Shown: piece after piece, positions 5,881 through 31,602 of the stretch
How the letters are laid out: every line of letters starts with the position of its first letter
How positions within the stretch are numbered: position 1 is the stretch's first letter
DNA from: Acidobacteriaceae bacterium
GTDB lineage: Bacteria; Acidobacteriota; Terriglobia; Terriglobales; Acidobacteriaceae
Reading direction: 5' to 3'
DNA length: 64,000 bases
Assembly: GCA_030038195.1 (NCBI GenBank)
Contig: JASHPJ010000124.1
Location: 62,001 to 126,000, forward strand
The notes under the pieces: model-generated
The model's input: the letters and a program-made list of their open reading frames with translations, nothing else
What the model was told of the DNA's origin: nothing
Databases searched by the model: none
Program-made: the position numbers and the translations under genes

Positions 5881-6426
5881 CTATTTGCCGTTCTTTGACT
5901 TACCCAGGGACAGCACCTGGAGATCGACCTTCGCCAGCCCATTGTGGGTCATGGCCAGCTTCGTCGCCGCGCCATACGAGAGATCGATAATCCGGCCCTC
6001 TTTGTCGAGGTCGCCGCGGTCGGTGATTTTCACCACGACCGCGCGCTTATTCGACCGGTTGATCACTTTCACGATCGAGCCAAAGGGCAGCGAGGGGTGG
6101 CAGGCGGTCATGGCGTACATGTCGAACCGCTCGCCGCTGGCCGTCCTGCGGCCGTTGAAGATCCCTCCGTACCACGAGGCAACGCCGTGGAGCCGGTCTT
6201 TCCACGCCACTCCCGGCGTGGGCTGCTTGGCCAGCGAAGCCGGAGTGGCGCTGGCAGCCGGCGTGGCTGCAGCGGTTGGGATCGGCAGCAGAAGACGCAC
6301 ATCCGCCTGCACGGTCCGCGTGGAGAGCAGCACCACCACAGCGGCCAGCGCAACCGAAGAAGTTCCCGCAAGCAGATAAATCCGAAGCGGGGATTTTGCG
6401 TTCAAGTTGCGTGATTTCCGTCTCAT
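5881..6426 (-). CDS. rlpA: RlpA-like septal ring / lytic transglycosylase-type protein
   Basis: 181 residues with an N-terminal membrane segment or signal peptide (LAGTSSVALAAVVVLL), an alanine/proline-rich linker and a C-terminal double-psi beta-barrel of the RlpA type. The barrel carries GVASWYGGIFNGRRTASGE, MTACHPSLPFGS, VKITDRG and GRIIDLS, all classic RlpA motifs. Members cleave naked glycan strands or bind peptidoglycan at the septum. No SPOR domain follows the barrel, so this is the short form. ATG 6426 is preferred over ATG 6432 because GGTGGA sits six bases before it. It is convergent with the M1-like gene, about 60 bases away. Confidence 0.88.
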   Translation of the reverse strand: MRRKSRNLNAKSPLRIYLLAGTSSVALAAVVVLLSTRTVQADVRLLLPIPTAAATPAASATPASLAKQPTPGVAWKDRLHGVASWYGGIFNGRRTASGERFDMYAMTACHPSLPFGSIVKVINRSNKRAVVVKITDRGDLDKEGRIIDLSYGAATKLAMTHNGLAKVDLQVLSLGKSKNGK

Positions 6427-6740
6427 AACCATTCCACCATTTTACCAACTCGATACTCCTTTTCGCCCAGCGTTGGCAAGACCCCGGCGAGATTTCCTGT
6501 TGAAAACATCCGGCCGCATGGTTGCAAAAAAGTGCAGCTTTTTCTTAGACTTGCATCCTATCTGGTGCAAAAGCCGGCCCCGGCGGGACCGATCTGGAGG
6601 CCTAAGAGGAACGAAAAGCAGCACATAGGGCCGAAACGGCCGGACCGCGGATCGATTTTCCTGGAAACAGTAGAGGCAAGAGTATCTTATGAGATTGAAT
6701 CTAAATAACTTAAATATAAAATAGACTACTGGGGGCCGCG
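6427..6740. other. Intergenic region upstream of rlpA, no gene seen
   Basis: No convincing coding frame. It holds a short hairpin AAAAAG/CTTTTT (6527-6532 with 6538-6543) and a strongly AT-rich stretch around 6688-6724, unusual for this GC-rich sequence, which lies just beyond the end of the gene at 6741-7028. The rlpA promoter should be in the first part but I cannot place it with confidence. Confidence 0.5.
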
Positions 6741-19867: not shown

Positions 19868-19880
19868 GTTAGTAGTTTGT

Positions 19881-19950
19881 GGTGACGGAGTTCACCCTTA
19901 ACCGCTGTCCCATCCAATAGGCTGGACAGATGATGACTCCTGACAGGGAT
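19881..19950 (+). promoter_or_regulatory. Fluoride riboswitch (crcB motif), copy 1
   Basis: The fluoride aptamer can be drawn directly. The first stem-loop is GGTGA...TCACC (19881-19896) with loop CGGAGT. The conserved joining segment CTTAACCGC follows, then a second stem TGTCC...GGACA (19906-19910 with 19924-19928). The 3' strand GATGATGACTCC contains ACTCC, which pairs with GGAGT of the first loop to form the pseudoknot. A hairpin ACAGG/CCTGT follows at once as a possible expression platform. In known examples fluoride binding turns on crcB and related genes; here the first gene is eno and crcB is third. The leader to eno is about 350 bases long. Confidence 0.93.
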
Positions 19951-20227: not shown

Positions 20228-21529
20228 ATGTCCGAAATTGCAAGGCTCGAAGCTCTGGAAATTCTCGATTCCCGTGGGAATCCAACACTCGCTGTCACCG
20301 CAACTTTGTCGAATGGCGTGCAAGCAACTGCAAAAGTGCCATCCGGCGCATCGACCGGAAAACGGGAAGCGGTTGAGCTGAGAGATGGCGATAAAAGACG
20401 CTATGACGGTAAGGGTGTCCTCAGGGCCAAGAGCCACGTGGAGACCGAGATTCTGAATTGGGTCCGCGGTCTCGATGCCAACAATCAAGCCGCTCTTGAC
20501 AAGACAATGTGCGAGCTTGATGGAACGCCAAACAAAGCCCGTCTTGGAGCCAATGCCATTCTTGGTGTTTCTCTGGCGGTAGCGCGGGCCTCGGCAGCCG
20601 ATCGCGGCTTGCCGCTGTACGCCAGTCTTGGGGATCTTTCAGCCAACCTGATTCCAGCTCCTTGGTTCAATGTATTGAATGGCGGAAGACACGCCGATAA
20701 CAGTGTCGACTTCCAGGAGTTCATGATTTCGCCAGTGGGAGCGCCTCGATACAGCGACGGTTTGCGCGCCGCGGCTGAGACATTCCACGCGTTGAAGTCC
20801 GTTCTCCACAAAAAGGGCCTGAACACCGCCGTCGGCGATGAGGGCGGCTTTGCGCCCCAATTAAAGTCGAACGAAGAGCCGATTGAATTGATTCTCGAAG
20901 CGATTCACAAGGCCGGCTACAAGCCGGGAAAAGATGTAGTTCTCGTGCTCGATCCGGCAACAAGCGAGCTGTTCGAAGACGGCGAATATGTTTTTGCGAA
21001 ATCGGGCAAGAACAGAATGTCGCCTGCGCAGATGATCGAATTCTGGAGCGGCTTGCTCGATCAGTACCCCGAGATATGGGCGCTTGAAGACGGAGTGGCC
21101 GAGGACGATCGTACGGGATGGCAGCGATTAACCAGGATGCTCGGCGATCGAATTCAGTTAGTCGGTGACGATAACTTTGTGACCAACCCATCGATCTTCA
21201 AGCAAGGGATCAAGGATGGAATTGCCAATGCGATTTTGATCAAGCTGAACCAGATCGGCACGGTAACGGAAACACTGGAATGTATCCAGATCGCGCGCGC
21301 GAACGGCTATGGCGCGGTCATCTCCCATCGATCAGGAGAGACGGATGACACCAGCATTGCGGACCTGGCCGTAGCCGCAGGCATGGGGCAGATCAAGACG
21401 GGCTCAACCAGCCGCGGAGAGCGCATCGCCAAGTACAACCGCTTTTTAGAGATTGAGCAGGAGCTTGGATCGAAAGCTCGCTATGCTGGTTCCAGTGTGT
21501 ACGAGCGCTGGCAGGCGGTGAAGGCTTAA
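20228..21529 (+). CDS. eno: Enolase (phosphopyruvate hydratase), riboswitch-controlled
   Basis: Converts 2-phosphoglycerate to phosphoenolpyruvate; fluoride with phosphate is a classic inhibitor of this enzyme. The 433-residue protein has all main enolase landmarks: GNPTLAVTATL, VPSGASTGKREAVELRDGD, the GDEGGFAP motif, LEDGVAEDD, QLVGDDNFVTNP, IKLNQIGTVTETLE, the VISHRSGETDDTSIADLAVA signature and GSTSRGERIAKYNRFLEIE near the end. Mg-ligand and catalytic Lys contexts look intact. It is the first gene of the fluoride-riboswitch transcript and has the lower-GC codon style of the island, so I infer a second, stress-specific enolase rather than the housekeeping one. Whether it is fluoride-resistant cannot be seen. 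Confidence 0.95.
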   Translation: MSEIARLEALEILDSRGNPTLAVTATLSNGVQATAKVPSGASTGKREAVELRDGDKRRYDGKGVLRAKSHVETEILNWVRGLDANNQAALDKTMCELDGTPNKARLGANAILGVSLAVARASAADRGLPLYASLGDLSANLIPAPWFNVLNGGRHADNSVDFQEFMISPVGAPRYSDGLRAAAETFHALKSVLHKKGLNTAVGDEGGFAPQLKSNEEPIELILEAIHKAGYKPGKDVVLVLDPATSELFEDGEYVFAKSGKNRMSPAQMIEFWSGLLDQYPEIWALEDGVAEDDRTGWQRLTRMLGDRIQLVGDDNFVTNPSIFKQGIKDGIANAILIKLNQIGTVTETLECIQIARANGYGAVISHRSGETDDTSIADLAVAAGMGQIKTGSTSRGERIAKYNRFLEIEQELGSKARYAGSSVYERWQAVKA

Positions 21530-21619
21530 GAGAGCCAAAACCGATATGGGTGTTGGAGTCCACCAGAGATCGCTCGCTAGGGCAGATGACTCCTCGGGAG
21601 CCAAAAATTCGGAGGAGTC

Positions 21620-23722
21620 ATGCCCAACAAAGGTCTGGAAGTGGTGAAGTCCCGACGCCCAGGCGAGTTGAACGAGGCGCAGCAGCGGCGTCTGCTCGTC
21701 TCCTGCCAATACATTGACAAGCTGCTTGGCAGCATCGAAAACGCGCTGCACTCCGCGTCGTCGCTATCGCCATTTCCACGGTATGTCGTCGACGTGACGC
21801 CCGCCCAGGCGCGCGTATTGGAAGACCACATACGCCGCATCCGGACTCAACTGCTGCACGCCTTGGATTGGCAGTGCATGAAGCCGGAACCACCTGAAAT
21901 TCCTGTCACGCGAGCGATCACTACCGATCTCGCATTCATCGATATCGCAATCGAAGAACTCAGGCCGAGCTACATGCGTGGAAGTGGCGCTGTGCCCGAG
22001 GACGCGGTGGCTGAGCTGAACGGGGTCGTTCACGAGCTGCGCTCCATTGTTCAAAGCATGAACCACTATGTTCGTCAGGAGCTGGGCATCAATCTCGAAT
22101 CGCGTCTGCGCAAGCTGGAAGCGACCGGGTATAATGTGGCTCTTTTGCGCCTGATCGAGGAACTCATTACCCGTCATGGGCTCGTAGAATTTCGCGCGCG
22201 CATTGACTCGCTGGCTTCCCGTCTCGAGGACAACAACCTTGAGGTTGCCCTGTTCGGCCGCGTCAGCAGCGGAAAGTCGTCGCTCTTGAATGCTCTTCTG
22301 AACACCAACGTTCTTCCCGTAGGCATCAATCCCATTACCGCCGTTCCAACAAGACTGACTTATGGACCGGCCGTTCGCGCTGCCATCACATTCGGCAGCG
22401 GCAGAGAAGAGGAAGTCACTCTCGACGAGCTTGCCAAGCTGGTGACAGAGCAGGGAAATCCCGGCAATCTGCGCAACGTCGTGCGCGCTGTGGTTGAGGT
22501 TCCTTCTCCGCGACTCAAGCAGGGCATCGTCCTGGTGGACACCCCTGGGCTTGGCTCGCTGGCCCGGCGCGGCGCCGCAGAGACGCTGGCCTATCTGCCA
22601 TCCTGCGATCTTGCGCTCTTTCTTCTTGACGCGGGAACTTCACTCAATGACGAAGACATCGGCACTCTTCGCCTGCTTTATGAGGCAGGGATCCCCGCGA
22701 TTGTGCTTCTCAGCAAAGCAGACCTTCTTGCTCCAGGGGACCTGCATCAGACAACCGGCTACATTCAGGAACAGCTTCATGCCGAGCTCGGCCTCGGGAC
22801 AAGCGTGCACGCCGTCAGCTCACTGCCGGAGCGGACGGTGCTGCTCGATCATTTCTTCGAATGTGAGCTCCTTCCGCGATTTGAGCAGGCGCGTGCGCTT
22901 CGGAACAGCTCTATCGCCAGAAAAATTGGGGCATTGCGCGATTCCGTTGCCGCGGCCCTTACCACGATCCTGGACCAGACAAAGCGGAGAGGGCAGGAAT
23001 ACCCAAGCGATGTGCACGATCTTGAGGAGCAACTGCGCTTGATCACAGGTGAGATCGGGGAGCAGGGCTCCATTTTAAGCCACGCCTTCTTCAGGCTTGC
23101 CGAGATGCCGGATGCGATCCTTTCCGAAGCGGCGGACAGCGCAGTTGCGTGGGTGCTGGCAAACAAAAAACCTCGCGTCTCCTCGATGCGGCTTTCCGAG
23201 TGGCTGCACGACGCCGTCTGGAACGCGGTGGGGCGCAGTGTTGACGATGTCCGCGAGGTCTGTCGGCGCGCCATCTTTACTCTTCAGACCGTAGCCCAGG
23301 AGATGGGGCGTACAGACGTGCCATCTCCCGATGAAATAGAGATTCTGTTGCGCGATGTGCCCCGGTTCGAGTTGGCTACGCTTCCGGAGAGCGTGAATCT
23401 GCAGCCGTGGGTGTTTCTGGGAAACCGGTTCCTGCGGTATAAGGTGCGAGCGTCTCTTCGAAGCAATGTTGGCGGCCTGGTGAAACAAGAGCTGCATCTT
23501 TATGGGCAGGCGTTATCGCAATGGGGTCGGCAGTTCGCAAATAAGATCGTGCATCTGGTGGGGTCGTATGCCGATGCCTACCGTGTTCAACTGCACCGGA
23601 TTACCGGAACCTCGAATGACGCTGTGGACGTTCCCCAGCTTGAGCGGGATCTATCTCTGTTGGCAAGCTGGACGGCAGATGAAGGCGCCGGCGTGACCGA
23701 CACCCTGCAGAAGGAGGCCTGA
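21620..23722 (+). CDS. Dynamin-like GTPase 1
   Basis: 700 residues. Helices occupy ~1-205, then a dynamin-type GTPase domain with G1 GRVSSGKSS (213-221), a G2 candidate Thr in NPITAVPTRLTYG (~240-244), G3 DTPGLG (307-312) and G4 SKAD (365-368). A long helical region (~400-700) forms the stalk and bundle. It includes a short hydrophobic patch (LQPWVFLGNRFLRYKV, ~595-610) that could be a membrane-inserting paddle. Bacterial dynamins bend, fuse or seal membranes and usually work in pairs; a second one is encoded at 25901-27655 in the same operon. Only two bases separate its stop from the crcB start codon, so the link to fluoride export is strong by position. The function in fluoride stress is inferred. 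Confidence 0.88.
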   Translation: MPNKGLEVVKSRRPGELNEAQQRRLLVSCQYIDKLLGSIENALHSASSLSPFPRYVVDVTPAQARVLEDHIRRIRTQLLHALDWQCMKPEPPEIPVTRAITTDLAFIDIAIEELRPSYMRGSGAVPEDAVAELNGVVHELRSIVQSMNHYVRQELGINLESRLRKLEATGYNVALLRLIEELITRHGLVEFRARIDSLASRLEDNNLEVALFGRVSSGKSSLLNALLNTNVLPVGINPITAVPTRLTYGPAVRAAITFGSGREEEVTLDELAKLVTEQGNPGNLRNVVRAVVEVPSPRLKQGIVLVDTPGLGSLARRGAAETLAYLPSCDLALFLLDAGTSLNDEDIGTLRLLYEAGIPAIVLLSKADLLAPGDLHQTTGYIQEQLHAELGLGTSVHAVSSLPERTVLLDHFFECELLPRFEQARALRNSSIARKIGALRDSVAAALTTILDQTKRRGQEYPSDVHDLEEQLRLITGEIGEQGSILSHAFFRLAEMPDAILSEAADSAVAWVLANKKPRVSSMRLSEWLHDAVWNAVGRSVDDVREVCRRAIFTLQTVAQEMGRTDVPSPDEIEILLRDVPRFELATLPESVNLQPWVFLGNRFLRYKVRASLRSNVGGLVKQELHLYGQALSQWGRQFANKIVHLVGSYADAYRVQLHRITGTSNDAVDVPQLERDLSLLASWTADEGAGVTDTLQKEA

Positions 23723-23724
23723 AC

Positions 23725-24099
23725 TTGCAAAGATATTTCTTTATTGCGATTGGCGGCGCATTGGGCTCGATTACCCGGTACTGGGTGGGCTCGGAAGTCG
23801 CCGATCGCATGGGAACCAAGTTTCCATACGGCACATTCTTCATCAATATCTCGGCCTGCGTGATTATCGGGTTCTCTCTCACTCTGCTGGCAAAGCGGGC
23901 AGAGTTGAGCCCCGCCTGGAGGTTCCTGGTGCCGGTCGGTTTTGTCGGCGCCTACAGCACTTTTTCGACCTATGAATGGGAAACCCTATCTTCCATTCGA
24001 ACGGGGGCTTTTTTCATTGCGGCGTTATACGCGGTCAGCAGTCTTCTTCTTGGGCTCGTTGCGGTCTGGTTTGGCTCTCTTATCGCGGAGATCATCTAA
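23725..24099 (+). CDS. crcB: Fluoride channel Fluc/CrcB
   Basis: Dual-topology, dimeric fluoride channel of the inner membrane that lets toxic fluoride leave the cell. 124 residues with four membrane helices: ~3-20, ~35-55, ~65-85 and ~97-120. Family motifs are GGALGSITRYW, YGTFFINISACVIIG (normally GT-x-x-x-N) and VGFVGAYSTFSTYEWE, which holds the pore Phe and Thr/Ser track. Translation starts at TTG 23725, supported by AAGGAGG about 8 bases upstream. Its stop overlaps the ATG of the next gene. It is the defining member of the island and explains the riboswitch. Confidence 0.95.
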   Translation: MQRYFFIAIGGALGSITRYWVGSEVADRMGTKFPYGTFFINISACVIIGFSLTLLAKRAELSPAWRFLVPVGFVGAYSTFSTYEWETLSSIRTGAFFIAALYAVSSLLLGLVAVWFGSLIAEII

Positions 24100-24665
24100 T
24101 GAGAACGCAAAAGCAACTCGCTTTTTACCAGTCAATCCTTGAAGCGCTTGCAGAGGCCGGGTGCCCGTTTTGCCGGTTCTTAAAGGACTACCAGGCAGCA
24201 CGACTTCAAATTCACTCGAACCGCCAGTTCCAATACCTGTGTAATTTTCATACCTGGGGCCTGGCTGCGGTACAGAACGCCCTGACTGCCGCAGAGGTCT
24301 TTCTGGACCTGGTCGAGAAATCGGCGATAGTCACTGGAGAGCATCCAAGCTGTGAAATCTGCAGCGAAGTTGCTGCCGAAGAGGATAGGCGGATTCGGGA
24401 GCTGGCAAGCTGCATTCACCGGACCGATGTTACCGATTGGCTGCGCAAGGACGCGATATTCTGCATTCCTCATGGAACCAAGCTGCGCCACCAGGTCCAG
24501 CCTGTCGTCGCCGCCCGTATTGATGCAATTATCGACAACCACCGCAGGCAATTGATTCAGGAACTGGAGACATTGCATGACACGCCACAGACGGACAGGC
24601 CAGGCTGGGGCGCGCTGGGACGCGCCGCGGAGTTCCTGGTTTCGCAACGTGGTCTGCATGTATAG
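24099..24665 (+). CDS. DUF6062-like protein with two CxxC/CxxH zinc-ligand sets
   Basis: 188 residues. Four metal-ligand pairs are visible: Cys22-Cys25 (CPFC), Cys48-His51 (CNFH), Cys85-Cys88 (CEIC) and Cys122-His125 (CIPH). The arrangement CxxC...CxxH occurs twice, so the protein probably binds two zinc ions or an Fe-S centre in a helical scaffold. The pattern fits the DUF6062 family as I remember it; that assignment needs a profile search. The start ATG overlaps the crcB stop (TAATG), so it is translationally coupled to the channel. Its role in fluoride stress is unknown; a metal or redox sensor is one possibility. Confidence 0.7.
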   Translation: MRTQKQLAFYQSILEALAEAGCPFCRFLKDYQAARLQIHSNRQFQYLCNFHTWGLAAVQNALTAAEVFLDLVEKSAIVTGEHPSCEICSEVAAEEDRRIRELASCIHRTDVTDWLRKDAIFCIPHGTKLRHQVQPVVAARIDAIIDNHRRQLIQELETLHDTPQTDRPGWGALGRAAEFLVSQRGLHV

Positions 24666-24680
24666 AAGGAGCCAAGAAGC

Positions 24681-25427
24681 ATGTTGAATGCCGGCAAGGC
24701 TGTCAAGGTATCGATCTACGTGAGTGAAGGGGCAACACATCACGGCGTTCCCACTTATTCCAGCATCATCGACTTTCTTTTTTATCGAGGTATTTCAGGC
24801 GCGACGGTGTTGAAGGGCATTGCCGGATTCGGTGCTGACCATCATATGCACTCTGCCGGTTACGTTGAAATATCTCATCACTTGCCTCTCAAGATTGAAT
24901 TTATCGAGACGAAGGAAAAGGTGGACGAAATTCTCGGCAAGCTTGAAGAGATGGCCGGGAGCGGGATGATCGAGATCCAGGAGACCACGGTGGCAAAACC
25001 CGCCCGGGTTTCAAAGTCGAAAAAGATGGCGCCGCCCGCGCACCTGAAAATTGAGGGCAAGGCAAAAATGATGCGCATCTACATCGGCGAAGTCGATCGC
25101 TGGAGGGACAAGCCTCTTCATACTGCCCTCGTTGAGGCCATGCGGGCGAACGATATCGCCGGTGTCACTGTGTATCGGGGCATCCTCGGCTACGGCGCTC
25201 ATGGACGCATTCACAAAGACAAGGCATTACATATCTCCCACGACGCCTCGATCATGCTGTCGGTGATCGATCGAGAAGAGAAGCTGCAGGCCTTCCTCCC
25301 GATTGTTGAGCAAATGGTGGAGGAAGGGTTGGTGGTTTTATCCGATGTCGACATTATCAAGTATTCCTACCGCGCAATGGAGGTCGAATCACCAGAAGCA
25401 ACTGGATCGGGAAGCAGTTCAGCATAA
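24681..25427 (+). CDS. Tandem DUF190 (PII-like) protein
   Basis: 248 residues made of two DUF190 domains, at ~5-105 and ~125-235, joined by a Lys/Ala/Pro linker. Each has the family core: SIYVSEGATHHGVPTYSSII with GISGATVLKGIAGFGADHHMH, and RIYIGEVDRWRDKPLHTALVEAM with GVTVYRGILGYGAHGRIH. DUF190 proteins have a ferredoxin-like, PII-like fold and are often encoded next to crcB; their ligand is not established. AGAAGGAG precedes the ATG. The gene follows the DUF6062-like gene by 15 bases and precedes a third, single DUF190 gene by 14 bases. Confidence 0.88.
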   Translation: MLNAGKAVKVSIYVSEGATHHGVPTYSSIIDFLFYRGISGATVLKGIAGFGADHHMHSAGYVEISHHLPLKIEFIETKEKVDEILGKLEEMAGSGMIEIQETTVAKPARVSKSKKMAPPAHLKIEGKAKMMRIYIGEVDRWRDKPLHTALVEAMRANDIAGVTVYRGILGYGAHGRIHKDKALHISHDASIMLSVIDREEKLQAFLPIVEQMVEEGLVVLSDVDIIKYSYRAMEVESPEATGSGSSSA

Positions 25428-25441
25428 GCGGAGGCTTAGCC

Positions 25442-25804
25442 ATGAAGGAACAGTTTCAAGCGCGCATGTTGCGGGTCCATTTCGGCGAAGGCGATAAGTG
25501 GCAGGGTAAGCCGCTGCATGAAGCGATTGTCGCCAAATGCAAAGAGGTAGGCATGGCTGGCGCCATTGTGTACCGGGGCATCGAGGGATATGGATCCAGC
25601 ACGCGAATACGGCATGCCAGGGCCCTGTCGCGCGATGCGCCCATCATGCTGAGCATCATCGACTCTGAAGAGCAGATCGCCAAACTGATTCCCCATCTCG
25701 ACACAATGGTTGAGGAAGGGCTGATCGCTATGTCTCATGTGGAGGTCATACGGTATTCGAAAGGCTCTGCGGGCGCTCAGAAATTCGATATTCCGATTGG
25801 TTGA
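25442..25804 (+). CDS. Single-domain DUF190 (PII-like) protein
   Basis: 120 residues carrying one DUF190 domain: MLRVHFGEGDKWQGKPLHEAIV, GAIVYRGIEGYGSSTRIRHA and IMLSIIDSEEQIAKLIPHLDTMVEEGLIAMSHVEVIRYS. It is closest in pattern to the second domain of the preceding protein, so a local duplication is likely. GGAGG lies ahead of the ATG. With the previous gene, three DUF190 domains are made from one message, which would suit a trimeric PII-like assembly of mixed subunits; that is inference. Confidence 0.87.
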   Translation: MKEQFQARMLRVHFGEGDKWQGKPLHEAIVAKCKEVGMAGAIVYRGIEGYGSSTRIRHARALSRDAPIMLSIIDSEEQIAKLIPHLDTMVEEGLIAMSHVEVIRYSKGSAGAQKFDIPIG

Positions 25805-25900
25805 CTGCAGGGACTCGCCGATTTTGGAGAACGACAGTCTCAAGCGAGCGGCAACATCTCGGTGAACTCTGATCGAGCCGGCAGAATGCAAGGCGGCACC

Positions 25901-27655
25901 ATGACAGATCATGAATCTATACAGACGGATCGTGCGGCGCTCTTACAGTCCGTTGACGTTCTTTCCGACTTGGCAAAACGCAACCAGATCGAGGACCTGC
26001 AGGTCGCGCTGGCGGCGCTTTCGGAAAAGTTAGAGAGGAACCGCTTCAATCTGGCCGTGCTCGGCCAAATGAAGCGCGGCAAGAGCTCGTTCATCAATGC
26101 ATTGCTGGGTGCGGAAATATTACCTACCGGTATCCTCCCGCTCACATCCGTGATTACCCGAGTGACGTATGGGCCCGTGCCAACGGCAACCATCTTCTAT
26201 AATTCGGGCCGATCGGAATCGATCGAAGTACCGGCTCTCCGCGAATACATCACGGAAGCAGCTAACCCTGGGAACCGGAAACAGGTGGCCGCCGCGGAAG
26301 TAACCTATTCTGCCGGGCTCCTGCGCATGGGAATTGATCTCATTGATACACCGGGGATCGGTTCAACTCACTCACATAACACGTCGACAACCGAGGACTA
26401 TCTCAGCGAAGTCGATGCCGGCATCGTGGTACTTTCTGTCGACCCTCCGATTACTGCCGTCGAATTGCAGTTCCTGCGGCGCGTTCATGAGGATATTCCC
26501 CGGTTGCTGTTCGTCATCAACAAGGCTGACATGGTGATGCCGAGCGAGCTGGAAACCATTCGGAGATTTCTTGAGCGCGAGCTGCGTAATCGTATCGGTA
26601 TTGAGAGTCCCGAGCTTTTCCCGCTTTCTGCGCGCCAGGCGATGCGGGAGCAGTTAGATCCAACGCTGGAAAAATCCAGCGGCTTAGAGCAACTGGCTGC
26701 CCGGCTTCATTATTTTGCTTCCAAGGAGCGGGAACGGACCCTCCTTCAATCGATCGGACTCGACTTATTGCGCATAGCAAACACTCTCCGCTTCACGGCA
26801 CTCATCGGCGAAAGAGCCAGAGCGATGCGTGGCGAGGATCTCGAAAAGCGGAAACAATTGCTCGAAGCGGCGCTTGCGAAAAGCGATCAGGAATTCAAGG
26901 ACCTGCGTCATCTGCTTCGACAGGACGCGGCCTCGATCGTCGCGCAGGTAGAGGCTGATCTTAAAGACCATGTTGCCGCGGCAAAGCCCGGAGTGCGTGA
27001 GCAGCTAACAAGATTAAGACAGGAGCATCCAACGGAAACCCGCTTGCGGCTGGGAGAGCTGCTGGATCGGTTCCTGGGTGATGAAGTTGCGGCTACGTTT
27101 GATGGATGGTGCACGAGAGAGGACGAATATATCCAAAAGAAATTGGCGGAATTATCGGATCGGTTCGTTGAAAGAACGAACACGGTGCTGGAACGGCTGC
27201 AACAAGCAGCCGGCGCGTTGTTCGATGTTCCGGTTTCGCACGTAGATTTCAGTTCGGCTCTGACGATGGAGAGTCATCTTTATTACCATACGGACCCTGT
27301 TTTTATGTATCAACTGGACAAGTTGATCTTTATCCTGCCTAAATTCCTGCTGCGTCCCATCGTGTTTCGCAGGATGCTGAGCTATATCGACAGAGAGCTC
27401 GATCGCAACTCAGGGCGAATCCGCTATGACTACGTGCAGAGGCTGGAGAAATCCATCGCTGCATTCGAGCAGGAACTGAAGAGCGCAGTTTCCATCGTCA
27501 CCGATAATCTCCGTCGCGTGCTGCAATCGGGGGCAAAGGATGCCGAATGCTCACAGGCAACCGTATCGCAATTGGACCCAATCATTGCACAGTGCTCCTC
27601 GCTGCTGGCTGGAGCAAATCTGAATCCTCAATTTGCGGAAACTGCGGGAGGGTAA
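25901..27655 (+). CDS. Dynamin-like GTPase 2
   Basis: 584 residues from ATG 25901 (a GTG at 25862 would add 13 residues without any family match). The GTPase domain has G1 GQMKRGKSS (~55-63), a G2 region with Thr in LPLTSVITRVTYG, G3 DTPGIG (149-154) and G4 NKAD (207-210). Long helices follow to the end. The hydrophobic stretch YQLDKLIFILPKFLLRPIVF (~470-490) sits at the tip region of the helical part and is a good candidate for a membrane paddle. It differs clearly from the dynamin at 21620-23722, as expected for the two unequal partners of a bacterial dynamin pair. It follows the DUF190 gene by about 95 bases in the same operon. Confidence 0.88.
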   Translation: MTDHESIQTDRAALLQSVDVLSDLAKRNQIEDLQVALAALSEKLERNRFNLAVLGQMKRGKSSFINALLGAEILPTGILPLTSVITRVTYGPVPTATIFYNSGRSESIEVPALREYITEAANPGNRKQVAAAEVTYSAGLLRMGIDLIDTPGIGSTHSHNTSTTEDYLSEVDAGIVVLSVDPPITAVELQFLRRVHEDIPRLLFVINKADMVMPSELETIRRFLERELRNRIGIESPELFPLSARQAMREQLDPTLEKSSGLEQLAARLHYFASKERERTLLQSIGLDLLRIANTLRFTALIGERARAMRGEDLEKRKQLLEAALAKSDQEFKDLRHLLRQDAASIVAQVEADLKDHVAAAKPGVREQLTRLRQEHPTETRLRLGELLDRFLGDEVAATFDGWCTREDEYIQKKLAELSDRFVERTNTVLERLQQAAGALFDVPVSHVDFSSALTMESHLYYHTDPVFMYQLDKLIFILPKFLLRPIVFRRMLSYIDRELDRNSGRIRYDYVQRLEKSIAAFEQELKSAVSIVTDNLRRVLQSGAKDAECSQATVSQLDPIIAQCSSLLAGANLNPQFAETAGG

Positions 27656-27731: not shown

Positions 27732-28097
27732 GTGATTGCTTTCTGCACACGTTGCTGGCGTGAGATTGACTCGGAGATCGCACAGTGCCCGCGCTGTGGG
27801 GCTGATCAGAGTCATGACCTGCGATCGTACGAAGAAAAGATTGTTGCTGCGCTCGCACACCCGCTGCCGGAGGCGAGGGCGCGCATCTGTTGGCTCATTG
27901 GGGAGACGCACATTCGCGCGGCGACTCCGAACCTGATAGAGATCGTGGAAAACGATCCGGATATTTTTGTCCAGAGGGCAGCCATAGAGGCATTAGGGGC
28001 ATTACAGGATCCGCGCTCGGATGCAATATTATGTGCGATCAGTAGAAGCGACAATCGTTTCCTGGCCAATGCCGCCCGAGAAAGCCTCAGAAAATAG
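27732..28097 (+). CDS. Zinc-ribbon plus HEAT-repeat protein
   Basis: 121 residues starting at GTG 27732, with GGAGAAGGAT upstream. Residues 5-23 are a zinc ribbon (FCTRCWREIDSEIAQCPRCG; CxxC...CxxC). Residues ~35-120 form two to three HEAT/PBS-lyase-like helical repeats (AALAHPLPEARARICWLIGE, ATPNLIEIVENDPDIFVQRAAIEALGAL and DAILCAISRSDNRFLANAARESL). It is likely a small adaptor that binds protein partners. As the last gene of the first fluoride transcript it may act with the dynamins, but this is inference from position only. Confidence 0.8.
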   Translation: MIAFCTRCWREIDSEIAQCPRCGADQSHDLRSYEEKIVAALAHPLPEARARICWLIGETHIRAATPNLIEIVENDPDIFVQRAAIEALGALQDPRSDAILCAISRSDNRFLANAARESLRK

Positions 28098-28202: not shown

Positions 28203-28279
28203 TGCTTGCAAACGATATACATTCGTCTGGGCAGGTGATCAAACATTCTTGCGATCGATTACCGTGATAAACTAAGTGT

Positions 28280-28347
28280 GGCGAAGGAATCCGCCTTCGA
28301 GCGCCACCTGAGAGCAGGTGACTGATGATTCCTACCGATCTGGTAGG
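28280..28347 (+). promoter_or_regulatory. Fluoride riboswitch (crcB motif), copy 2
   Basis: A second fluoride aptamer. The first stem GGCG...CGCC (28280-28294) has loop sequence AAGGAATC. A short joining segment and a second hairpin CACCTGAGAGCAGGTG follow. The 3' strand TGATGATTCC contains ATTCC, which pairs with GGAAT of the first loop. A perfect six-base-pair hairpin CCTACC...GGTAGG (28331-28336 with 28342-28347) overlaps the 3' edge of the aptamer and is a natural expression platform, since it competes with the conserved 3' strand. TAAACT about 10 bases upstream may be the -10 box. The next genes are the two MutS-like ATPases. Confidence 0.88.
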
Positions 28348-28495
28348 AGTCTGTATGCCCCTACCAAAGTTTTACTTGAAGCACATCCCTCTGGAGGCGA
28401 GTACGCTTACCTGGACAGAGGCGCCCGGTATGAGTGGTCACATTTGACGCATGGTTAGCCGGTCTATGATGAACGGCTACTCAAGGCAAATTGCT

Positions 28496-30031
28496 ATGAC
28501 TTTTCACAGCATATTATTCGAAGGTGCAGATCAAGAATTCTCTGCAGAGTGCGCTACAGAGCCAGCATTCTTCAACGACCTGAACCTCGATCAATTTGTG
28601 AACAGAGTGACAACCGGGTGGGAGGAGTACAACCTTGCTCCCTTCTATTACACGAGGCTAGGAGACTTACAGACCATTATCTTCCGCCAGCAAATCGTGC
28701 GGGACCTCGAGCCCCCAACTCTCTTCCAGGCAATCAAGTCTTTTTCCGCGCAGATGCAAGCCATGCGGCGGCGTATTGACCAGGCGAAACAATTTTTTTA
28801 TGAACGTGCCAGCCAGAGAGGGTTTCTCGGCGCTGTCGAAATCTATTGCGCGGCTGTCGAGCGGCTGACCCTGGATATCTGCTCGCACGAACCGAAGTCC
28901 CAGGGCCTGATTCTGCTGCAGGATTATCTGGCTCATTATGTCTCTTCTGCTGGTTTCCGTGCACTTGTAACAGAAACGGAGGCTCTCAAGGCTGACCTGG
29001 CCACGATCAAATATTGCCTGCTGATCAAGGGAGATACGATAACGGTCCGCAATCCCGAGGATGAGGATGATTACAGCGTGTCGGTCGAGGAGACCTTCAA
29101 AAAATTCAGACGCAACGCGGACCAAAGGTTTCGAATCGAGGTGCGCCAAATAGAGGGCGTCAATCACATTCAAGCCCAGGTACTCGATGGATTAGCAACG
29201 TTACATCCCGATACTTTCGAAACGCTGAAGACCTTTTGTACGATTCATGCCAACTATCTGGATCCTGTAATTGCGCGGTTTGACAGAGAAGTGCAGTTTT
29301 ATATGGCCTATCTGACCTTTATGAACAAGCTGCGCATATTCGGTCTCAATTTTTGCCTGCCGGAACTTTCACAAACCGCGAAAGCAGTAGAGGGGCATAA
29401 CGTCTATGATCTTGTTTTAGCCGCAAAACTCGTCGATGACAAGGCAACAGCAGTCTGTAACGATTTCACTCTTTCTGGCGCAGAGAGGATCTTCGTCGTA
29501 ACCGGTCCTAATCATGGCGGCAAAACTACGTTTGCCAGAATGTTCGGACAAATGCACTATCTAGCCAGTCTCGGCTTGCCGGTCCCAGGCACAGAGGCTC
29601 GTCTCTTTCTATTTGATCGCTTGTTTACTCACTTCGAACGGCACGAAAATGTTGCCAATCTTCGCGGCAAGCTACAAGACGACCTGGTTCGAATCCGCAG
29701 CATCCTGGATAAGTCGACTCCAAACAGCGTGATCATCATGAACGAAATCTTCGCGTCTACAACTCTTCAGGATGCCACCTTTCTCAGTCGGCAGATTATT
29801 ACCCATCTTTCCTCGCTTGACCTCCTTTGCGTGTGCGTCACATTTTTAGATGAATTAGCTTCATTGAATGAAAAGACCGTCAGTATCGTGAGCACGGTTG
29901 ACCCGGATAACCCGGCGATTCGAACCTTCAAACTGGAGCGGCGGCCTGCCGACGGGCTTGCGTATGCATTGGCTATCGCGCAGAAGCATCGCGTCACCTA
30001 CGGATTCTTAAAGGAGCGCATTCCCGAATGA
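28496..30031 (+). CDS. MutS-domain-V ATPase 1 (no mismatch-recognition domain)
   Basis: 511 residues from ATG 28496, chosen because the family N-terminus reads like (M)xFHSILF; frames open at 28451 and 28466 have no good ribosome-binding site. The first ~330 residues are helical, equivalent to the MutS lever/clamp region. The C-terminal ABC-type ATPase domain has Walker A GPNHGGKTT (337-345) and a Walker B-like SVIIMNEIFAST, with Asn in place of the usual Asp before the Glu. The N-terminal mismatch-binding and connector domains of true MutS are absent. It is the first gene after riboswitch 2. Such proteins are annotated as MutS-related; the actual substrate is unknown. Confidence 0.87.
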   Translation: MTFHSILFEGADQEFSAECATEPAFFNDLNLDQFVNRVTTGWEEYNLAPFYYTRLGDLQTIIFRQQIVRDLEPPTLFQAIKSFSAQMQAMRRRIDQAKQFFYERASQRGFLGAVEIYCAAVERLTLDICSHEPKSQGLILLQDYLAHYVSSAGFRALVTETEALKADLATIKYCLLIKGDTITVRNPEDEDDYSVSVEETFKKFRRNADQRFRIEVRQIEGVNHIQAQVLDGLATLHPDTFETLKTFCTIHANYLDPVIARFDREVQFYMAYLTFMNKLRIFGLNFCLPELSQTAKAVEGHNVYDLVLAAKLVDDKATAVCNDFTLSGAERIFVVTGPNHGGKTTFARMFGQMHYLASLGLPVPGTEARLFLFDRLFTHFERHENVANLRGKLQDDLVRIRSILDKSTPNSVIIMNEIFASTTLQDATFLSRQIITHLSSLDLLCVCVTFLDELASLNEKTVSIVSTVDPDNPAIRTFKLERRPADGLAYALAIAQKHRVTYGFLKERIPE

Positions 30032-31602
30032 AGGCGTTACTCATGCATCGCGACCAGGACTTCAACGTCCAGCAGAAACGGCCGTGGAATGAAGCCATTC
30101 TCACACAGGATCTGGAGTTGAATCCTCTCTTCAGCGCTATGGCGGCCGGTGACCAATTCCTTTTCGAGGTCGCAAGAGCAGCCCTGTTCTCCGGACTCCA
30201 AAACAATCTGGAGACCATATTGTATCGGCAGGAGGTGCTTAAGGATTGCCTAGCAAGACCGGAATGGATAAAGAAGCTCTACGATCTCACGGTGGATGCC
30301 ACGGACCGCACAAAGCGGATGTGGTGGGACTTATCCAGCCATTATCCCGATTCTGTTCTCTTTGGCGCAGTCTCGCTGCTCGATTCGCTTCTGGAAGCGC
30401 TCAGGACGCTGAGGGGCATCGCGGAAGAAGCTGGCGGCCAGTTTTTCTCGGCGGGGTTTACGACTCTTTTCTCTACACTCCGCAGTGAGCTTGATAACGA
30501 GTATTTGGCAACGATTGAACAGTATTTAACAGATCTAAAATTTCGAAATGGAACTTTATTGCGTGCAACTCTGGGCGAAGACAACGAAGGCACAAATTAT
30601 ATGTTGGTCAAGCCGCCCAAAAGAGAACCAAGCTGGTTCAAGCGCATGCTCTCCAAAGCACCTCCAGGCTACACCTTCCATCTGGATCCGCGCGATGAGG
30701 CAGGTGCAAGGATTGTATCGGGAATAAGACAGCGCGGGATCAGTCGGGCTGCAATCACTTTGGCCCAGTGCGCTGATCATGTTTTAAGCTTCTTCAAAAC
30801 ATTGAAGGCTGAGCTGGCCTTCTACAAGGGATGTATGAATCTTCACGACAGATTGACAGCTAAAGGCGAGCCGGTGTGCTTCCCTGTTCCGGCTCCGCTT
30901 GTTGAGCGTAAGCATCGGTTCAAGGGGCTGTATGATGTGTGCCTTTCGCTCCACCTTGATCGTAAGCTGGTGGGCAATGAGGCGGATATGAACGGTAAAA
31001 GTTTGACCATTGTTACTGGCGCCAACCAGGGCGGCAAATCCAGCTTTCTACGCTCAATTGGCTTGGCGCAGCTCATGATGCAAGCGGGCATGTTCGTTGG
31101 CGCTGAATGTTTCGAGGCTGAACTCTGCCCCGCTCTTTTTACTCATTACATACGCGAAGAGGATGAGACTCTGAAGGGTGGAAAGCTGGACGAAGAACTT
31201 GCAAGAATGAGCGAAATTGCCGACTATATTGTGCCAGACTCGCTCCTGCTCCTCAACGAGTCCTTTGCCGCGACAAATGAGCGGGAGGGATCAGAGATAG
31301 CGAGTCAAGTAATCCGCGCACTTCTCGAAAAAAGAGTCAAGATATTCTTTGTCACACACCTATACTCGTTTGCAGCCGGCATCTTTGAACAAAAAACTGA
31401 AGAAGCATTCTTTCTGCGGGCCGAGAGGCTTTCCGACGGGACACGAACGTTCAGGCTGCTTGCACAGGGGCCACTTGAAACCAGCTACGGGGAAGACTTG
31501 TACCGGGAGATTTTTGCTGGAAGCCCAAACCGTGAAGCCACATCCTCGCGTGAAGCTGGCGTCACAAGCCGGGCAGAAGCGACTGCTTCTACGCCTACAT
31601 AA
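30028..31602 (+). CDS. MutS-domain-V ATPase 2 (no mismatch-recognition domain)
   Basis: 524 residues whose ATG overlaps the stop of the previous gene (ATGA), with AAAGGAG upstream. Helical N-terminal half (QDLELNPLFSAMAAGDQFLF, LETILYRQEVLKDCL), then the ATPase domain with Walker A GANQGGKSS (331-339), a short signature-like segment (GGKLDEELARMSEIADYI) and Walker B-like SLLLLNESFAAT. As in its partner, the mismatch-recognition domain is missing and the Walker B Asp is Asn. Translational coupling and similar architecture suggest an obligate heterodimer. The C-terminal tail is Ser/Thr/Ala-rich and probably disordered. Confidence 0.87.
   Translation: MKALLMHRDQDFNVQQKRPWNEAILTQDLELNPLFSAMAAGDQFLFEVARAALFSGLQNNLETILYRQEVLKDCLARPEWIKKLYDLTVDATDRTKRMWWDLSSHYPDSVLFGAVSLLDSLLEALRTLRGIAEEAGGQFFSAGFTTLFSTLRSELDNEYLATIEQYLTDLKFRNGTLLRATLGEDNEGTNYMLVKPPKREPSWFKRMLSKAPPGYTFHLDPRDEAGARIVSGIRQRGISRAAITLAQCADHVLSFFKTLKAELAFYKGCMNLHDRLTAKGEPVCFPVPAPLVERKHRFKGLYDVCLSLHLDRKLVGNEADMNGKSLTIVTGANQGGKSSFLRSIGLAQLMMQAGMFVGAECFEAELCPALFTHYIREEDETLKGGKLDEELARMSEIADYIVPDSLLLLNESFAATNEREGSEIASQVIRALLEKRVKIFFVTHLYSFAAGIFEQKTEEAFFLRAERLSDGTRTFRLLAQGPLETSYGEDLYREIFAGSPNREATSSREAGVTSRAEATASTPT

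Follow-up and report, generated by a model that had tools for sequence, protein, structure and literature searches.

Dynamin-like GTPases with predicted fluoride riboswitch control in Acidobacteriota and archaea

Introduction

Here, we analyze two genes for dynamin-like GTPases, dyn1 and dyn2, that lie among fluoride-response genes in a 64,000-nucleotide (nt) stretch of DNA from an Acidobacteriaceae bacterium (GenBank assembly GCA_030038195.1, contig JASHPJ010000124.1, positions 62,001 to 126,000 of the forward strand). This whole stretch is referred to as the window, and positions are counted from its first letter.

Several described systems resemble this locus in part. In Campylobacter jejuni, Cj-DLP1 binds Cj-DLP2 through its N-terminal assembly domain (PDB 5owv and 5oxf), and Cj-DLP1 was crystallized with GDP.AlF4, as stated in the accessible part of the source (PMC6104087). 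According to the same accessible text, this is an unequal operon pair in which the BDLP-like body of one partner is extended by an additional N-terminal domain, as is that of dyn1 (119 amino acids [aa] in C. jejuni, about 150 aa in dyn1; PMC6104087). However, the two N-terminal domains have no detectable relation, dyn1 has predicted fluoride riboswitch control, and the dyn1-type domain also occurs alone. The mycobacterial dynamin IniA (PDB 6j72/6j73), described as drug-induced in the part of the literature accessible to us, is the best PDB sequence match of dyn1 (expect value [E] 3.6e-18) and a fold match of dyn2 over 505 residues, although the sequence match is only partial. We know of no link between IniA and fluoride. 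The best sequence match of dyn2 is BDLP of Nostoc (PDB 2j68; E 3e-22). BDLP and the mitofusin/Fzo1 proteins share with the window's dynamins a common plan of G domain, neck, and trunk, but identity is only ∼17 to 18%, and dyn1 has no evident paddle.

On the regulatory side, known regulons of the fluoride riboswitch (the crcB motif, RF01734) also include crcB, eno, mutS-like, formate-hydrogenlyase-like, and pyrophosphatase genes. The accessible part of Weinberg 2010 (PMC2864571) lists mutS and genes for K+ or Cl− transport and formate hydrogen lyase with the crcB motif and does not mention dynamin; dynamin, DUF190, and MutS are not mentioned in the accessible part of a 2024 review (PMC11139923), nor dynamin in that of a 2022 riboswitch review (PMC9971707). 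Our literature search, from which most subscription papers including the founding Baker 2012 were missing, found no link between dynamins and fluoride riboswitches, and the same open literature held nothing that joins cyclopropane fatty acids, fluoride, and riboswitches. Publications that mention crcB together with dynamin are, by title, all work on eukaryotic cells or cancer.

Results

Fluoride is near certain, as read from the DNA, to raise expression of these dynamins, and this evidence links a conserved dynamin family to fluoride riboswitches in both bacteria and archaea. The elements that carry this finding in the window are as follows.

19872 to 19949, plus strand: fluoride riboswitch 1, 5' of eno (RF01734, 37.5 bits; gathering cut-off 34)
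21540 to 21600, plus strand: fluoride riboswitch 2, ending 20 nt 5' of dyn1 (29.3 bits with our own model R1, of which it is not a seed)
21586 to 21595, plus strand: 3' pseudoknot strand ATGACTCCTC of riboswitch 2, complementary to the ribosome-binding site and start codon of dyn1
21612 to 21621, plus strand: Shine-Dalgarno sequence and AU of the dyn1 start codon, GAGGAGTCAT, the predicted sequestered partner
21620 to 23722, plus strand: dyn1, dynamin-like GTPase of 700 aa, clade A (PF00350, 85.1 bits; cut-off 27)
25862 to 27655, plus strand: dyn2, dynamin-like GTPase of 597 aa, clade C (PF00350, 101.3 bits; cut-off 27)
28271 to 28341, plus strand: fluoride riboswitch 3, 5' of a MutS-like gene pair (RF01734, 27.9 bits, below the gathering cut-off of 34; R1, 44.9 bits, but a seed of R1)

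R1 is a model that we built from 13 riboswitch sequences of the window's genome and its relatives; its seeds include riboswitches 1 and 3, and none of the 80 dyn1 loci described below is a seed. Only riboswitch 1 exceeds the Rfam gathering cut-off. In the pseudoknot of riboswitch 3, both strands differ from the GGAGT/ACTCC form in a compensatory way (GGAAT/ATTCC), and this covariation speaks for function.

Riboswitch 2 looks like a translational ON switch for dyn1. Its strand ATGACTCCTC can pair over 10 nt with GAGGAGTCAT in the dyn1 leader. Because the same strand is also needed for the fluoride-bound pseudoknot, the two pairings are mutually exclusive, and fluoride should thus open the dyn1 start site. 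This arrangement recurs: an R1 switch lies 17 to 54 nt 5' of the dyn1 match at 36 sites including the window. Scoring was possible for 35 of them, which comprise 30 distinct sequence pairs. A start-site helix of at least 9 bp, with G-U pairs allowed, is possible in 30 of these 35, while shuffled leaders average 4 to 5 pairs; the sites below 9 bp are L046 (7), L063 (5), L066 (6), L070 (6), and L114 (4) (L, G, and C numbers are our handles for loci, genomes, and contigs).

The association extends well beyond the window. A scan of species genomes with the dyn1 alignment gave 279 relatives, from which the best 80 loci were kept, all acidobacterial by title except for one titled Methanoregula. An R1 riboswitch is present within 400 nt 5' of dyn1 in 62 of these 80 loci and 1.2 to 3.2 kb 5' in nine more, with enolase intervening in L078, L079, and L106. 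Three loci have no usable upstream sequence (L082, L086, and L124), and no R1 riboswitch was found 5' of dyn1 in the remaining six (L076, L077, L084, L096, L117, and L121). Among distant loci, in which dyn1 is 37 to 43% identical, the dyn1-proximal switch exceeds the Rfam cut-off in eight of nine examined.

Across 297 genomes of the window's phylum, the listed RF01734 matches (E ≤ 0.001) number 133 and fall in 100 genomes, of which 92 have at least one over the cut-off; this search used stricter filters, and weak sites were lost. For the 44 strong Dynamin_N matches in these genomes (E ≤ 2.1e-19), RF01734 lies within 800 nt 5' on the same strand in 24 and within 4 kb in 31, and 36 have any such riboswitch within 10 kb. 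By contrast, 0 of 16 weaker dynamins (E 8.1e-15 to 2.3e-10) have one, a count made among the matches listed, with second pieces of one gene dropped and matches weaker than 2.3e-10, mostly short and partial, left out. These proximity counts rule out chance juxtaposition. A riboswitch is present in 32 of 33 genomes with the dynamin family vs. 68 of 264 without it (Fisher p 4e-16, ignoring relatedness). Thus, the family is tied to fluoride, yet fluoride regulons often lack the family.

One of the scanned dyn1 loci belongs to a genome with the record title Methanoregula, on which we centred a survey of archaea. In the phylum of this genome, dyn1 matches (E ≤ 1e-12) occur in 21 of 392 genomes and dyn2 matches (E ≤ 1e-15) in 10 of 148. 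RF01734 lies within 400 nt 5' of the match on the same strand for 18 of 19 archaeal dyn2-type genes; in the exception, G575, a weak R1 match (17.7 bits) close to the end of a contig is all that was detected. Two of the three full archaeal dyn1 genes have RF01734 within 400 nt 5'; the third has it 1.5 kb 5' with enolase between. Overall, a riboswitch lies within 5 kb of the gene in 20 of 21 archaeal genomes, enolase is a neighbor in 16 of 22 archaeal loci, and riboswitches are present in 10 of 10 genomes of this phylum with a dynamin match vs. 2 of 15 without. The archaeal ribosomal protein eL19, a marker checked in 10 of the 21 genomes, is encoded in all ten dyn2-matching genomes and absent from two acidobacterial genomes compared. 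Contamination of the archaeal bins is ruled out for G318, G355, and G373, in which a single contig of >2 Mb carries both eL19 and the dynamin; it is possible in G297, in which the contig is short. Outside these groups, the best plasmid match of dyn2 is in Lichenicola cladoniae (Alphaproteobacteria), where the gene is divergent from an operon of riboswitch, crcB, and universal stress protein. With riboswitches directly 5' of dynamins in Acidobacteriota and archaea, the link to fluoride that a preliminary description of this DNA had proposed is strongly supported at the level of regulation.

That description had also placed two unequal dynamins here, and the open frames together with Dynamin_N matches far over the cut-off bear this out. 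It had them bracket crcB and the DUF190 genes, and crcB (by TIGR00494) and the DUF190 genes (by PF02641) do all lie between the two. The same-strand order is eno, dyn1, crcB, a Cys-rich DUF6062-like gene, a double and a single DUF190 gene, dyn2, a HEAT protein gene, and two genes for MutS-like ATPases.

20228 to 21529, plus strand: enolase (eno), second copy in the genome (TIGR01060, 605.8 bits)
23725 to 24099, plus strand: crcB, Fluc fluoride channel, TTG start (TIGR00494, 107.8 bits; cut-off 80.45)
24099 to 24665, plus strand: Cys-rich protein, weakly DUF6062-like (Pfam E 0.0093, below cut-off; start inferred, open frame from 23976)
24681 to 25427, plus strand: double DUF190 protein with PII-like fold (PF02641, 203.3 bits; P-II, 43.7 bits)
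25442 to 25804, plus strand: single DUF190 protein (PF02641, 106 bits)
27732 to 28097, plus strand: zinc-ribbon-like and HEAT-repeat protein (PF13646, 54.1 bits; zinc ribbon below cut-off)
28451 to 30031, plus strand: MutS-like ATPase a (PF00488, 63.3 bits)
30028 to 31602, plus strand: MutS-like ATPase b (PF00488, 69.6 bits)

A neighborhood conserved in related genomes, which had been set beforehand as a test of the proposal, is present across Acidobacteriota, and this conservation excludes chance. The recurrent layout, whole or in part, is [switch] eno [switch] dyn1-crcB-DUF6062-like-DUF190x2-DUF190-dyn2-type [switch] MutSa-MutSb. Over the 80 dyn1 loci, the neighbors are double DUF190 (50 loci), dyn2-type (48), eno (41), DUF6062-like (36), crcB (22), and MutSa (18); these counts are lower bounds, since switchless loci were left unannotated, short genes may escape annotation, and contigs break off early. 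The other enolase copy of the genome, on contig G000:C37, is 61% identical to the operon enolase. The Cys-rich protein, whose gene sits between crcB and DUF190, is small and has several CxxC-like pairs.

A tree of 175 dynamins, from a quick FastTree run without assessment of branch support, places dyn1 in clade A; clade B holds the usual 584-aa partner, encoded 3' of DUF190, and clade C includes the window's dyn2. Clade D comprises dynamins encoded beside lipid-modifying enzymes and in Lichenicola, and single dynamins of other families are also in the tree. The view that dyn2 is the usual pair partner of dyn1 did not hold up, as dyn2 belongs to clade C and the usual partner to clade B, although B and C occur together in some loci (L046 and L071). 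No 584-aa clade B partner was found among the three dynamin matches in the window's genome, an assembly that is 97.5% complete. These three are dyn1, the C-type dyn2, and a D-type dynamin on another contig, and each lies in a fluoride locus, which for the third is identified by R1 only.

The operon of the D-type dynamin (L040; G000:C90, 3707 to 8671) has the order switch (R1, 25 bits), metallophosphatase-like gene, cyclopropane-fatty-acid synthase, HEAT protein, and dynamin. Cyclopropane synthase is found in five fluoride-switch operons of the loci examined (L040, L113, L118, L128, and L135). Four of these, L128 being the exception, also encode a dynamin, and this pairing is the best hint that the target may be the membrane itself. 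The operons that pair the synthase with a dynamin (L040, L118, L135, and L113) often also encode metallophosphatase and HEAT proteins.

Both proteins have the G1, G3, and G4 motifs that had been reported, all readable from sequence: GRVSSGKSS, DTPG, and SKAD in dyn1, and GQMKRGKSS, DTPG, and NKAD in dyn2. The dyn1 G4 motif is unusual, the usual form being N/TKxD; its residues S365, K366, and D368 do not vary across 50 sequences. The long helical stalks described earlier are predicted in both structure models. As for the proposed hydrophobic paddle, dyn2 has a moderately hydrophobic segment (residues 488 to 506, mean hydropathy 1.39) that its model places at the tip between two long helices, and dyn1 has no clear counterpart, the best value in its stalk being 0.98 at residue 496.

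The dyn2 model is good, with a predicted local distance difference test score (pLDDT) of 89.2 and a predicted template-modelling score (pTM) of 0.81. Its fold matches are Fzo1 (Z 29.6; 323 residues aligned, root-mean-square deviation [rmsd] 3.8), mitofusin 1 (Z 28.8; 343, 4.3), IniA (Z 25.4; 505, 9.8), 5owv_A (Z 22.0; 492, 44), and BDLP (Z 20.3; 522, 9.4). For dyn1 they are mitofusin 1 (Z 25.2; 311, 4.0), IniA (Z 22.3; 390, 39.2), and 5owv_A (Z 19.4; 432, 18.5). The large rmsd values mean that domains match singly and not as a whole pose; the 732-residue 5owv_A, which we take to be Cj-DLP1, matches dyn2 and dyn1 domain by domain. Neck and trunk helical bundles of the BDLP/mitofusin type are thus present in the predicted models, more weakly in dyn1 than in dyn2. 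Assignment to three named families was rejected, with dyn1 and dyn2 scoring 47.1 and 77.5 bits for DynA (NF052648; cut-off 1600), 18.4 and 20.9 bits for LeoA (NF041922; cut-off 325), and 19.3 and 29.4 bits for CrfC (NF007368; cut-off 1146).

Residues 1 to 165 of dyn1 lie outside all fold-search matches, and an extra helical domain spans about residues 16 to 165, present and conserved in relatives. Pfam gave only weak matches for it (best E 0.015, Fzo_mitofusin, in 2 of 15 members), and its profile found no convincing PDB relatives, the matches at E < 0.1 being designed helical proteins only. The domain is also found by itself, in frames that have no G1 motif, in seven archaeal loci (L147, L148, L151, L152, L168, L170, and L175) and one bacterial locus (L038), and seven of these eight loci also hold a dyn2-type gene; L039 and L176 have longer frames without a G1 motif. 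In L168 (G361, 5964 to 6569), the domain lies alone behind a fluoride riboswitch, and the dyn1 scan gave no other dynamin match in that genome of the archaeal phylum. By analogy with Cj-DLP1, the overall pattern fits a separable adaptor that would work with dyn2-type partners, with the domain-only genome G361 unaccounted for.

Other genes share this type of control. First genes were counted behind 230 switches in the loci examined, a count biased by loci centred on dynamins and from which L046 and L080 were omitted as duplicates; the phylum-wide counts are fairer. Na+/H+ exchanger-like genes are first behind 15 and MutS-like genes behind 12 of the 230. The window's MutS-like pair (28271 to 31602) has its own switch, and MutS domain V is its only Pfam match over cut-off; ATPase b has as its best NCBIfam match the KamC reactivase ATPase (66.9 bits, below the cut-off of 300). 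A role of this pair as ATPases that reactivate fluoride-poisoned enzymes may be worth a test. Genes for DnaB-helicase-like and STAND/AAA-type ATPases lie early behind riboswitches (L118, 1950 to 3578; L116, 2410 to 3966; L094, 8789 to 9547), as first gene at five each of 230. Another riboswitch of the window's genome (L044, 6585 to 6654; G000:C27; Rfam 38.2 bits) follows an MFS transporter gene and precedes one for an uncharacterised AAA ATPase. Riboswitches also cluster in islands, with 18 of 20 matches within 130 kb in Acidobacteriaceae bacterium TAA 166 (G299:C1:1697026-1826691) and 12 of 14 within 56 kb in Acidicapsa dinghuensis (G298:C12:776939-832448); the two regions correspond to loci L128 to L137, and the counts use matches at E ≤ 0.001, some of which are below the Rfam cut-off.

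Discussion

Our findings support a model in which dyn1, dyn2, and their relatives probably form a fluoride-induced, dynamin-like membrane system. Fluoride binding would form the pseudoknot of riboswitch 2 and free the dyn1 Shine-Dalgarno sequence and start codon, which would otherwise pair with the same strand. The dynamins, as BDLP/mitofusin-like GTPases, likely act on the membrane, a view that we hold with moderate confidence on the basis of sequences and models, and they would do so at the inner face of the cytoplasmic membrane. The dyn1 N-terminal domain would serve dyn2-type partners as an adaptor, as the assembly domain of Cj-DLP1 does for Cj-DLP2. The dynamins would then tether, reseal, or restructure a membrane that is crossed or damaged by hydrogen fluoride (HF), and lipid cyclopropanation would join them in a second line of resistance besides efflux. 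HF re-enters cells after export, most in acid habitats. Because efflux by Fluc cannot stop HF from returning through the lipid, as follows from general HF chemistry, a response on the lipid side is plausible. The benefit itself, which may be resealing of the membrane or lowered entry of HF, is the least certain part of the model. More tentatively, these genes may represent an export-independent fluoride resistance common to bacteria and archaea, made up of switched dynamins with a separable adaptor, lipid cyclopropanation, and perhaps direct switching by GDP-metal-fluoride complexes.

Several observations weigh against this model. With regard to control, riboswitch 2 is detected by R1 only and is not reported by the Rfam model at E ≤ 0.1. 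Close relatives, with dyn1 60 to 75% identical, reach the Rfam cut-off at the dyn1-proximal site in only one of six loci, and in a second set of six, which shares L053 with the first, four have matches at E ≤ 0.05 below the cut-off and two have none. The switch of the D-type operon is likewise not among the Rfam matches in the window's genome at E ≤ 0.001. With regard to distribution, Rfam finds no riboswitch within 10 kb of eight of the 44 strong dynamins, and one of the 16 weaker dynamins, a relative of dyn1 whose G3 motif is altered (G203:C35, L037), has no switch in 20 kb. Moreover, 68 of the 100 riboswitch genomes of the phylum lack these dynamins, which are thus dispensable for general fluoride resistance. 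With regard to the proposed membrane target, cyclopropane synthase is rare (few loci; seven genes in the neighbor-gene count), the dyn1 stalk has no clear membrane-inserting tip, and the AlphaFold2 model of dyn1 is middling (pLDDT 79.7, pTM 0.51).

The lack of a clear tip in dyn1 also speaks for a different role, in which the dynamins would serve as scaffolds or clustering factors for fluoride-response membrane proteins such as CrcB and the Na+/H+ exchanger-like proteins, in the manner of EHD proteins or flotillins and with no bulk remodelling. The position of crcB directly 3' of dyn1 in the window and many other loci, the frequency of exchanger genes directly behind riboswitches, and the resemblance of the models to EHD proteins as well (Z about 18 to 21) point the same way. 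However, many riboswitch-dynamin loci have no recognised adjacent crcB, although short crcB genes can be missed, and the best folds are those of the fusion-type Fzo1/mitofusin proteins and IniA; we consider such a scaffold unlikely.

A further possibility is direct action of fluoride on the proteins: as mimics of the transition state, complexes of GDP and AlF4− or MgF3− might lock the dynamins, assembled on the membrane, as a fluoride-triggered patch. Aluminum and fluoride can be abundant in acid soils and peat, in keeping with such a trigger, which the GDP.AlF4 structure of Cj-DLP1 also favors, as far as the accessible part of the source goes (PMC6104087). The G1 and G3 motifs of dyn1 and dyn2 are ordinary, though, and we regard this trigger as improbable.

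The dynamins could also be fluoride-insensitive spare copies of a housekeeping dynamin, much as the operon enolase is a second copy; fluoride-metal complexes inhibit G proteins. The same crystal structure shows that such complexes bind dynamins (accessible part of PMC6104087). Yet only the three dynamins described above were found in the genome, all in fluoride loci with the stated reservation for the third, and because no other, housekeeping copy was found, we set this simple explanation aside as very unlikely. That the dynamins are anti-phage or mobile-type passengers that came by accident into a fluoride island is scarcely credible, given that numerous distantly related lineages, archaea among them, have a riboswitch immediately 5' of a dynamin and that the weaker dynamins examined have none, even though fluoride genes do form islands and dynamin and crcB occur together among transposases on the alphaproteobacterial plasmid.

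To our knowledge, an inducing signal has been defined for only a minority of bacterial dynamins. Here, fluoride can be read from sequence as the predicted inducer of a dynamin family shared by bacteria and archaea, and a membrane arm of fluoride (HF) resistance thereby becomes directly testable. The putative separable adaptor domain offers a handle on how unequal dynamin pairs assemble. Altogether, these findings suggest that microbes may answer fluoride by membrane remodelling as well as by ion export.

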